In this document: one piece after another, positions 59,311 through 63,325 of the stretch
Position numbering within the stretch: position 1 is the first letter of the stretch
Layout: every line of letters starts with the position of its first letter
From: Thioploca sp.
GTDB lineage: Bacteria; Pseudomonadota; Gammaproteobacteria; Beggiatoales; Beggiatoaceae
Direction of reading: 5' to 3'
Assembly: GCA_012032555.1 (NCBI GenBank)
Contig: JAAUSR010000023.1
Location: 1 to 64,000, forward strand
Length of the DNA: 64,000 nt
Made by a program: the position numbers and the translations under genes
The notes under the pieces: model-generated
Seen by the model: the letters and a program-made list of their open reading frames with translations, nothing else
What the model was told of the DNA's origin: nothing
Database searches by the model: none

Positions 59311-61391
59311 ATGAAAAAGTTACTATTACATAATTTGCGCTTGCGGATGATTATTTTAGTCTTGTTGGGTGTGATACCACCTATGCTAGTCGCTATTTGG
59401 TTTGCCAGTTCACAAGCAGCTAGCATTATTCGCCAAGAAGTGGAAGAGAATCTCGCTTTGCGTGCCAATGAGTTAGCGGATAATGTATTAAGGTGGGATC
59501 AAATGAATGTGCTCGCTTTACGTAGCCTCAGCGAAAATCCCAAATTTGCTAATATGGAAGAAGAACAACAATTAGCACATTTATCAACAACTTACCGTTT
59601 ATATACAGAAATATATGGTCTGGCCACTTTAGATCGGGAGGGTTACGTTATTGCGAAGGAAACGGGGAAGGTAGCCGAGCTCGCTAACCTAAGTACCCAC
59701 GATTATTTTAAACGTGCTCTAGCGGGGGAAGAAATTATTCGCGAAGCCATTATATCTCATTCTTTTAAACAGCCAACGATGACCTTTGCTACGCCGATCC
59801 GTCGCTTACCTACCCTGAATTTGGGTGCGAAAGGTACTTTAGTTGAACAATTACAACAGAAACTTAAAGAAAAGGATTACTACCACGGTGAAATTAACGG
59901 AATTTATGATATGAGCACGGCAGAAGCGGTTCGTCAATTTCAAGCGCATTATGGTGGATTAGCCGCGAATGGAATTGCTGATCCACTCACGTTACACTTA
60001 ATTCGGTATCAAGAAGCTAAACCCCCCCCCAACCTAGAGGAGTCGGGTGAGATTGTTGGTGTTGCCGTTATTGCAACTTTTCTAACTGATCTCGCTAAAA
60101 CAGTCGGTGCTATTCGCTTAGGTAAAACCGGTTATGCTTTCCTGGTTGATGAACTCGGTCGAGTGTTAGCTCATCCAGAATCCAAATTCGTTGTCGGTGA
60201 TGAATTAACTAATTTGAGTCATTATCCACCAGTTAAGGCTATTTTAGAAGGTAAAAGTGGTTTTTATTCTTTTAACGATGAAAATCAAGTAAAATGGTTA
60301 TCCTATGGCATTCATTTACAAAATAAATGGAACGTCATTGCGTTACAACAACAAGCGGAAGTACTAGAAAAAGAATACTTTTTTATCAATTTAGTCATTT
60401 TAATTGCGACGGTGGCGGTGTTAAGTGTCATGATTTTAATCTGGTTATTGACCACGCGGTTATTGAAACCTATCACGGATCTGACCTTAGCCGCTAAAAC
60501 GCTTTCTAAAGGCGAGTGGCAACAACAAGTTCAAGTTAAATATCGAGATGAATTAGGCACTTTGGCCAGTACCTTTAACCAAATGGCTAAGCAACTTCGT
60601 ATTTCTTTTGCTATTCTAGAAGCTAAAAATGAAGAGGCACAAAAAGCGCGAGCCGAAGCAGAAGAAGCGAGTAAAGCTAAAAGTGTTTTTGTCGCTAATA
60701 TGACTCATGAACTGAGAACCCCTTTAAATGCCATTATTGGTTACAGCGAAATGTTACAAGAAGAAGCGGAAGATATGGGATTAGAGGATTTTATTCCCGA
60801 TTTGAAAAAAATTGGTAGTGCGGGTAAACATTTATTAGCTTTAATTAATGATGTCCTCGATTTTTCTAAAGTAGAAGCCGGACGCATGGAACTGTTTTTA
60901 GAAACTTTTGCCATTGAGACCATGTTAGAGGATGTGAGAGCAACGATTGAACCCCTGATAGAAAAAAATAACAATCAGTTACATATTAACAAAGCTGAAC
61001 CACTAGGCCAAATGCAGGCTGATGTCACTAAAGTTCGCCAATGTCTTTTTAACTTATTGAGTAATGCCAGTAAATTTACTGAGGAAGGGATTATTACTTT
61101 AGAAGTTCATCGTTACTGTGCTGCTGATAATAAAGATTGGATCACTTTTCAAGTCAGTGATTCCGGGATTGGGATGACTTCAGAACAAATGAGTAAATTA
61201 TTTAGCGCTTTTATGCAAGCCGATTCTTCAACTACCCGCAAATATGGTGGGACTGGCTTAGGATTAGTTATTACTAAACAATTTTGTCAATGATGGGAGG
61301 AAATGTTACAGTAGCCAGTGAATATGGTAAAGGGACCACCTTTAGCATTCATTTACCGAGTGAAGTAATCGATCTAAAAAAATTAGCCTAA
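59311..61391 (+). CDS. Sensor histidine kinase with PG-binding-like domain inserted in its Cache sensor; frameshifted near the end
   Basis: An inner-membrane kinase of about 693 residues if repaired. Order: membrane helix (about 14-34); first part of a Cache sensor (about 40-165, [27 protein letters not shown]); a peptidoglycan-binding-1-like domain (about 171-235, [36 protein letters not shown]); the second part of the Cache (about 245-345, [19 protein letters not shown]); second membrane helix (about 357-380); HAMP; coiled coil; HisKA with phospho-acceptor His466 ([18 protein letters not shown]); HATPase ([27 protein letters not shown]). As written, the frame stops at 61293 after TKQFCQ; one A added at about 61290 continues it as [23 protein letters not shown], ending at 61391. 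No response regulator is adjacent. A STAND NTPase gene follows 65 bases later. Confidence 0.87.
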
Positions 61392-61456: not shown

Positions 61457-63325
61457 ATGAATCTAGCCACGACAATCGATAAAAAATCAATTAAAACACA
61501 AACCATTTTAGATGAAAACGGTAACAAAGTTGCCGTTATTTTATCCTTGAATCAATTTGATGAGTTATTAGCAAGAATTGTCAAACTGGCTAAAAAAATT
61601 GAAGAAATATCAGCGACAGCCAGTTCTCAGACTCAAACAGCTACGATAACACCTTCAAGCCTGGGTGACGATAAAAATGCTTTACAATTTCAAGTGACCC
61701 TTCGGCAACAACACCATGATACACTCAATCATATTGTCGAGGATTTACGCAAATATGATGATCTCAAAACCGAACTAGAGCGCAAACTCCAGATCCAGCG
61801 ACTCATTAAATTTATTGATAGTGAGCAACAAACGCTTAGGCAACAACTCACTCAAGTTAAAAAAAATATTCGCTCGGCAACGCTATATCAGGTACCACCC
61901 CGACCACCGGGCTTGAACAGCAACAACCCGTTATTTAAAGAAATTAAAACCCACTTATTAGCTAAAGCTGTTAATAAGCAAAAACCACCGATAGTTATAC
62001 AAGCTCCCAGTGGCACTGGGAAATCAGTCATGGCGATTGAGTTAGCACGAAATACTGAAGTACAAAACACTTTTCCGGATGGGATTTTTTGGTTAAGTTT
62101 GGGAAAAGACACTGATTTATTAGCTCATCAAATCACGGTTATTCGCTTATTGGATGAAACCACGACTAATGTCTTTGACGTTGAAGAAGGCACTGCTCGT
62201 TTACGTGAGTTATGTACAACTCGAGCCTGTTTAATTATTTTAGATGATGTAACTGATGCACAAGATGTATTGGCCTTTAATATTGAAGGTGAATATTGTC
62301 AGTTATTGATAACCAGTAGTGAAGATAAATTAGCCGATATTTTGCAATATTTTATTAATACGACTCGAGGCTATGAATTAAAACCTTTTACCGAGGAACA
62401 AGCTATTCACTTCTTTTTTCAGTGTGTTGGCGGAAAAAATGTGACACCAGCAACTGTACCCATTGATATAGCCGCAATGGTACGTTCTTGTGCTTACTTA
62501 CCTCTAACCATCAAATTAGCCGCTAATATTGCCCGTGCTCAACCGTTATCTACCTGGCAAACGCTATTAGATAACTTACAAGATAAGACCAATGAATTTC
62601 CAGGTCAATATCCCTATACGTTAATGCAAGCCTTTCAATTAAATATCGAGGTACTCGGAGAAGCAGCCGATTACTACTTGGCATTGGCTGTATTTATTGA
62701 TTACTCTCATATTCCACAGCATGTCGTCCTCATGTTATGGCGTTATTTATACCAATTACGCGATGAAGAATCCTCTAAATTTATCAATGAATTGATTGAG
62801 AAAGCTTTATTATATCGGGATGAAATCGGGACAATTCAATTTCTCCGTTTACATTCTTTTCAACATGATTATTTGTGTGAACAAGCCGAATTAGAAAAAT
62901 TACATAATCATTTATTAGCAGCCTACCGTCGTCAATGTGATCAACATGGTTGGGTCAGTGGACCGAATGATAGTTATTTTTTTGAGTATCTGAGTATTCA
63001 TTTACATCATGCTGGACGTTTAAGCGAATTAAAACCACTATTATTAGATTACGATTGGTTGAATAAGAAATTAACCGCCACTAATATTCATGCGTTACTG
63101 AGTGATTATGAGTGGTTAGATGATAAAGAAGTTAACTTGGTTAAAGAAACACTTTACGATGCGGCTATTGTGTTACATACTCATAAAACTGAACTAGCTA
63201 ATCAATTGTTGGACCGCTTATGGGATAACCCGGCAGTTAAAAGTAATAAAGACATCCAGGCATTATTACATCAAGCTAAAGAAGCTTCTCCTAATTGGCA
63301 TTGGCAACCCCATTTTCCGGATTAA
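61457..63325 (+). CDS. Apaf-1-like STAND NTPase (NB-ARC) with antitoxin-like N-terminus and no WD40 repeats
   Basis: A 622-residue signal-transducing ATPase. Residues about 10-45 (TQTILDENGNKVAVILSLNQFDELL) resemble the start of Phd/YefM-type antitoxins. A coiled coil follows (about 45-140). NB-ARC core: P-loop APSGTGKS with Lys189, Walker B CLIILDD with Asp263/264, LLITSSEDKL sensor region, and the APLTI-like CAYLPLTIKLA segment (GLPLA equivalent). A winged-helix and helical region with LHSFQHDYL, YFFEYLSIHLHHAGRLSEL and LSDYEWL matches the Apaf-1-type linker that usually leads into WD40 propellers. Here the frame ends right there (PNWHWQPHFPD). There is no TIR, CHAT, caspase or nuclease effector domain. 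It probably oligomerises on ATP binding; signal and effector must come from partners. Confidence 0.82.
   Translation: MNLATTIDKKSIKTQTILDENGNKVAVILSLNQFDELLARIVKLAKKIEEISATASSQTQTATITPSSLGDDKNALQFQVTLRQQHHDTLNHIVEDLRKYDDLKTELERKLQIQRLIKFIDSEQQTLRQQLTQVKKNIRSATLYQVPPRPPGLNSNNPLFKEIKTHLLAKAVNKQKPPIVIQAPSGTGKSVMAIELARNTEVQNTFPDGIFWLSLGKDTDLLAHQITVIRLLDETTTNVFDVEEGTARLRELCTTRACLIILDDVTDAQDVLAFNIEGEYCQLLITSSEDKLADILQYFINTTRGYELKPFTEEQAIHFFFQCVGGKNVTPATVPIDIAAMVRSCAYLPLTIKLAANIARAQPLSTWQTLLDNLQDKTNEFPGQYPYTLMQAFQLNIEVLGEAADYYLALAVFIDYSHIPQHVVLMLWRYLYQLRDEESSKFINELIEKALLYRDEIGTIQFLRLHSFQHDYLCEQAELEKLHNHLLAAYRRQCDQHGWVSGPNDSYFFEYLSIHLHHAGRLSELKPLLLDYDWLNKKLTATNIHALLSDYEWLDDKEVNLVKETLYDAAIVLHTHKTELANQLLDRLWDNPAVKSNKDIQALLHQAKEASPNWHWQPHFPD

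Follow-up and report, generated by a model that had tools for sequence, protein, structure and literature searches.

The sensor histidine kinase described here, from a Thioploca sp. genome, carries one extracytoplasmic dCache domain that is split by a PG_binding_1 module. Pfam matches, insert-lacking homologues and two structure predictions support this anatomy, as does its conservation in 10 genomes. Most likely, the protein is a peptidoglycan-tethered or peptidoglycan-sensing kinase, for which we infer both the binding and the signalling.

A dCache sensor split by a PG_binding_1 module

We analysed a stretch of 64,000 nucleotides (hereafter the window), in which the kinase and its parts are arranged as follows:

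59311-61293, + strand: sensor histidine kinase open reading frame, 660 aa, cut off early by a frame break
59341-59415, + strand: first transmembrane segment (residues ~11-35; from hydropathy, with basic residues on its N-terminal side read directly)
59416-59805, + strand: first part of the dCache, comprising the long helix and the distal module up to its next-to-last strand (residues ~36-165; Pfam dCache_1 and model)
59806-60048, + strand: insert between the last two strands of the distal Cache module (residues ~166-246; missing in 12 insert-lacking homologues, alignment A3)
59833-59994, + strand: PG_binding_1 core (residues 175-228; Pfam, and a model that matches solved peptidoglycan-binding domains)
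60049-60366, + strand: second part of the dCache, comprising the last distal strand and the proximal module (residues ~247-352; Pfam dCache_1 and model)
60367-60444, + strand: second transmembrane segment (residues ~353-378; hydropathy)
60448-60600, + strand: HAMP domain (Pfam, residues 380-430)
60679-60882, + strand: HisKA with the H-box HELRTPL (Pfam residues 457-524; motif)
61021-61287, + strand: in-frame part of HATPase_c with the N, G1 and G2 boxes (Pfam residues 571-659; motifs)
61288-61391, + strand: C-terminal remainder of the ATPase domain in another frame (in frame in relatives)

Pfam matched the two sensor domains separately. dCache_1 scored 69.1 bits against a cut-off of 45 (E 5.5e-19) in a match split into two stretches, and PG_binding_1 scored 52.8 bits against a cut-off of 23 (E 4.5e-14) at residues 175-228, between those stretches. 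A preliminary description had placed a PG_binding_1-type module between two Cache halves, and the separate matches bear this out. It had also run the kinase from 59311 to 61391: the start holds but the end does not, because the frame already meets a stop at 61293 and the stop at 61389-61391 belongs to another frame. In phmmer searches against the PDB, the second Cache flank matched McpH-type Cache receptors (E 2.1e-5), and the insert matched the N-terminal domain of SleB (E 2.7e-5).

We compared the sensor with its relatives in an alignment (A3) of the window, four insert-bearing loci and 12 insert-lacking homologues, the latter from cyanobacterial, planctomycete and desulfobacterial genomes (16 of the 31 scan loci were used). 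The insert of ~80 residues occupied the position of a short loop: in the 12 insert-lacking homologues, four or five residues link the same two Cache strands (for example, KPALVLAVPIK to VGVLA). Because the same strands are joined by a short loop in these homologues, we conclude that the module was inserted into one dCache. Large insertions within Cache domains are mentioned in general terms in an excerpt of PMC4822843.

An AlphaFold model of the sensor (17 rows) consisted of two PAS-like modules on one long helix, with the strands that flank the insert at residues 155-164 and 248-257. Most Cache blocks had pLDDT values above 80; those of the insert were 40-62, and its placement relative to the Cache was not fixed. 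Among the VIA-align rows, the best match was to the dCache sensor 6mni (Z 21.6, rmsd 2.8, 231 aligned), and the kinase sensor 3lif matched with Z 21.1, rmsd 3.5 and 235 aligned; the Foldseek matches listed for the sensor model were likewise of the dCache type. The expectation that the flanks close into one Cache thus held in the prediction, where the flanks form a dCache with Z ~21 to solved sensors. The opposite possibility, that the inserted segment is part of the Cache fold, was ruled out by the insert-lacking homologues together with the dCache model of the flanks.

Folded alone, the insert formed three helices (176-187, 201-214 and 225-233), in agreement with the limits of 171-235 given for the module earlier. 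pLDDT blocks were 86-89 for model residues 11-50, 75-80 for 51-70 and 44-47 in the C-terminal linker. The model was built from an alignment of four orthologues and 28 phage domains, and the phage peptidoglycan-binding domains favour a three-helix result; the Pfam and phmmer matches of the insert are independent of the phage rows. The model superimposed on the N-terminal domain of SleB (6tci) with an rmsd of 0.9 Å and a TMt of 0.85, and matched the phage endolysin 5nm7 with E 4.4e-4. Only two of the 30 Foldseek matches reached E 0.001 (5nm7). The list contained mainly peptidoglycan enzymes or binding domains (1lbu, SleC, SltB3, YcbB and the periplasmic domain of the type II secretion protein EpsAB, 4g54); it also held the protease CtpB and, at its end, two unrelated rows. 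That the insert would fold independently was thus borne out for an alignment that contains phage domains of the same family. A chance match or mis-called domain was excluded by the Pfam E-value, the phmmer match to SleB and the fold match.

The insert keeps the core motif LQ..L, T..[AT]V..[FY]Q. DGxFG is absent: all ten inserts found (see below) read [NST][GS]xYD at that place, where most phage rows read DGxFG, and all ten have NG or TG at the second DG. A YD..T signature is invariant in all ten orthologues. We examined 33 other proteobacterial PG_binding_1 domains and found TG at the second place in 16 of them and YD in three (L179, L186 and L188). The changed DGxFG of the insert is thus possibly ordinary variation. 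Given the three domains with YD, we do not regard DGxFG as strictly defining for PG_binding_1, and its change would bear on binding rather than on fold.

Distribution and constraint

A scan of species genomes for exact peptide stretches, a method that works best for close relatives, gave 31 loci. We also compared the sensor with 57 relatives, of which 36 belong to the window's family and 21 do not. Ten of these genomes matched both Cache parts and the insert. All ten belong to the window's family (10 of 36) and fall into six genera (g1, g10, g15, g18, g19 and g20); of the carriers that have names, two are Candidatus Parabeggiatoa, one is Candidatus Halobeggiatoa and one is a Thioploca record. 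The insert-bearing loci L002-L005 were counted once with G018, G032, G033 and G020, and L006 matched the Cache C half only. The architecture is therefore conserved in other genomes, all of one family, and its presence in ten genomes excludes an assembly artefact. One further relative, G022, has a 114-aa open reading frame (L060:6465-6809) that matches only the first part of the sensor and is possibly a remnant.

Wider samples gave no further match spanning insert and Cache, either among 369 genomes of the class or among 398 of the phylum. Three of the class genomes matched: the window's own (whole sensor), G022 (first part) and G331 (Cache C half only); the nine other carriers had no row in this sample and were apparently not drawn. 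Seven of the phylum genomes matched, the window's over the whole query and six at positions 9-102 of 152, the PG part. PG_binding_1 itself is common, with matches in 98 of 120 phylum genomes. Among 33 PG_binding_1 frames taken from the strongest matches listed, a small and biased sample of mostly long frames, none carried kinase H-box or GGDEF patterns, and 29 of them had no other kinase boxes or chemoreceptor patterns. A viral scan queried with the insert found no relative, and the window's own genome contained no paralogue of the insert at E up to 0.01. That genome has seven PG_binding_1 matches in six frames; inspected by eye, one of the frames looks like an ExeA-like ATPase. The titles and abstracts of the open-access literature searched did not describe a Cache kinase with an embedded PG_binding_1.

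Both domains are retained among the orthologues scanned. PG_binding_1 was above the Pfam cut-off of 23 bits in all nine orthologues scanned of the 10 found: the window's and eight others, which scored 32.1 to 55.3 bits for PG_binding_1 and 47.8 to 74.9 bits for dCache_1. The H-box, N-box and G2 patterns were present in all ten orthologues and the G1 pattern in nine, with G019 as the exception. One orthologue, that of Thioploca CSMAG_545 (G020; L005, L055), lacks the region of the third helix, and its PG_binding_1 match covers positions 1-41 of 57 of the profile.

Across the ten orthologues, mean pairwise identity was 56.4% in the first Cache part, 54.9% in the PG core, 63.4% in the second Cache part and 85.4% in HisKA; the PG core is thus less conserved than the Cache C half. 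Thirteen of the 59 positions of the PG core are invariant. Between the window and G001, NG86 dN/dS values were 0.060 and 0.099 in the first and second Cache parts, 0.084 in the PG core and 0.101 in the insert as a whole. Judged from this one genome pair, purifying selection acts on the insert as it does on the Cache. Divergence of the insert correlated with divergence of the flanks (r 0.94, Mantel p 0.0001, 10 sequences), which fits one ancestral insertion followed by vertical descent. The G+C content was 43.2% in the insert, 43.0% and 37.3% in the first and second flanks, and 39.5% in the window.

The window's copy of the kinase is broken near 61288, inside the ATPase domain and past the G2 box. 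Its HATPase_c is incomplete (profile 2-84 of 111, Pfam), and the remainder of the domain lies in another frame that ends at 61389-61391. The nine other orthologues are 676-705 aa long and have no internal stop; in the eight of them that were scanned, the HATPase_c match reaches position 109 or 110 of 111. Because the sequence behind the break is still similar to G001, the break is either recent or a sequencing error. If it is real, the window's copy may be inactive.

The regions read around the ten genes contained neither a neighbour common to all carriers nor a response regulator gene linked in all of them. Wall or division genes adjoin the kinase in two of the ten genomes only. Behind the G015 kinase gene, and on its strand, lie minC, an open reading frame with sub-threshold MinD/ParA-type matches and minE (L058:3850-8208), and in G032 a PBP1C-like gene lies 1.9 kb upstream. 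In G019, the gene immediately after the kinase gene is YfiR/HmsC-like (DUF4154; L059:5883-6443); YfiR of Pseudomonas acts with a peptidoglycan-binding lipoprotein. These three kinds of neighbour are single cases and weak context. Most neighbours are unrelated, such as a hydrogenase protease and an efflux gene in G033, an H+-pyrophosphatase in G020 and a type II secretion gene in G018.

Two recurrent neighbours were seen besides. A divergent gene adjoins the kinase in G015 (L058:8818-10128) and G019 (L059:9146-10450); the starts of the two copies are similar to each other, and Pfam found receiver, HisKA and HATPase_c domains in the G015 copy. In the window, a gene for an NB-ARC/APAF-1-like ATPase lies directly downstream of the kinase (61457-63325); its short first segment resembles an antitoxin (weak RelB/Phd matches). 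The kinase genes of G018 and G032 also have such an ATPase gene behind them, as does that of G001, judged by N-terminal sequence only.

A proposed wall-coupled sensor and its alternatives

The preliminary description had suggested that the insert would place the sensor on the wall and couple wall state to ligand sensing, a putative role that we find plausible. We propose, with moderate confidence, that this HAMP-type kinase docks on the sacculus by a module carried on the distal Cache hairpin and that changes of the wall signal to the kinase. The last two strands of the membrane-distal Cache half form a hairpin whose tip would carry the peptidoglycan-binding module, and docking of this module would tether the sensor to the wall. 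The hairpin would then be pulled or released as wall occupancy, spacing or tension changes, with or without a contribution from a small ligand in the Cache pocket. The signal would pass through the proximal Cache half, the second membrane helix and HAMP to the kinase. The domain order, the insertion site, both folds, the conservation and the purifying selection come from sequence or prediction; peptidoglycan binding, its coupling to a signal, the direction of that signal and a receiving response regulator are putative parts of the model. Three points favour wall binding coupled to the kinase: the fold of the module has been preserved, selection acts on it, and its site is a hairpin of sensor strands. 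Several findings weigh against this reading: the DGxFG residues are changed in all ten inserts, G020 has lost the region of the third helix, the PG core is less conserved than the Cache C half, wall or division genes adjoin the kinase in two of ten genomes only, and no response regulator gene is linked to it in all ten. More tentatively, such kinases may form a class, so far encountered in a single family of large sulfur bacteria, for which the sacculus is a direct mechanical or occupancy input that is integrated with a small ligand.

Several other readings have to be weighed against this one. The module may merely fix the position of the kinase (at the septum, at the pole or along the lateral filament wall) while the Cache senses a small molecule independently. 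PG_binding_1 is generally known as a targeting module, and the Cache needs no insert to complete its fold and so could sense a ligand without it. Also in favour, the Caulobacter scaffold PodJ, which has a periplasmic peptidoglycan-binding domain, is needed to place the Cache kinase PleC at the pole according to an excerpt of PMC8980812, but the direct contact described there is cytoplasmic and joins the disordered region of PodJ to the PAS domains of PleC, not to the Cache. The insert, moreover, lies inside the sensor fold at the distal hairpin and is not a terminal tail. We consider an anchoring role on its own less likely than wall binding coupled to the kinase.

The changed DGxFG and the invariant YD..T of all ten orthologues could mean that the surface of the module has changed and that the insert contacts another envelope protein and no longer binds peptidoglycan. 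This is improbable given that the fold and the core motif are kept, that the nine scanned orthologues stay above the Pfam cut-off and that the regions read hold no neighbour gene common to all ten genomes. Even less probable is a neutral insertion that was tolerated in a surface hairpin and is now decaying: the third-helix region is indeed lost in one of ten orthologues (G020), but dN/dS is ~0.1, like that of the surrounding sensor (one genome pair), and the insert has been kept in six genera with its 13 invariant core positions.

Relation to known systems

The ways in which Gram-negative bacteria survey their thin wall are, to our knowledge, poorly understood. Beggiatoa and Thioploca relatives form long filaments and very large cells, for which surveillance of the wall may be more important than it is for small rods. 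A kinase of large sulfur bacteria with a wall-gripping-type domain in a loop of its sensing domain may report the condition of the wall. Removing that one loop could abolish wall contact in a single protein, which makes direct wall sensing testable.

The sensor has the same two-module extracytoplasmic fold as the dCache_1 kinase sensors 3lif, 3li8 and 3lib. In the twelve A3 homologues, by contrast, a short loop closes the hairpin and the peptidoglycan-binding module is missing from this place. The insert shares the three-helix fold and most motif residues with the PG_binding_1 modules of SleB, phage endolysins and ExeA/GspA but differs from them in being embedded in a kinase sensor domain and in its changed DGxFG residues. 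ExeA is a precedent for a peptidoglycan-binding domain in a membrane ATPase that is not a hydrolase; it is a tested case of such a domain that binds peptidoglycan, with multimerization, as an excerpt of PMC4098917 reports.

WalK of Bacillus subtilis, which controls wall hydrolase genes, is likewise a kinase tied to peptidoglycan sensing, a link that is a proposal in our case. The products of peptidoglycan cleavage are the proposed signal of WalK, and its extracellular domain has been suggested to perceive them (PMC7299342, excerpt). WalK, however, belongs to a different lineage, and the same excerpt mentions no peptidoglycan-binding domain for it. In the PleC/PodJ pair of Caulobacter, the localisation of a Cache kinase also depends on a periplasmic peptidoglycan-binding domain, but the two domains are in separate proteins that meet through their cytoplasmic parts; PleC has two cytoplasmic PAS domains, and Pfam found no PAS match in our kinase at E up to 1 (PMC8980812, excerpt, for PleC and PodJ).
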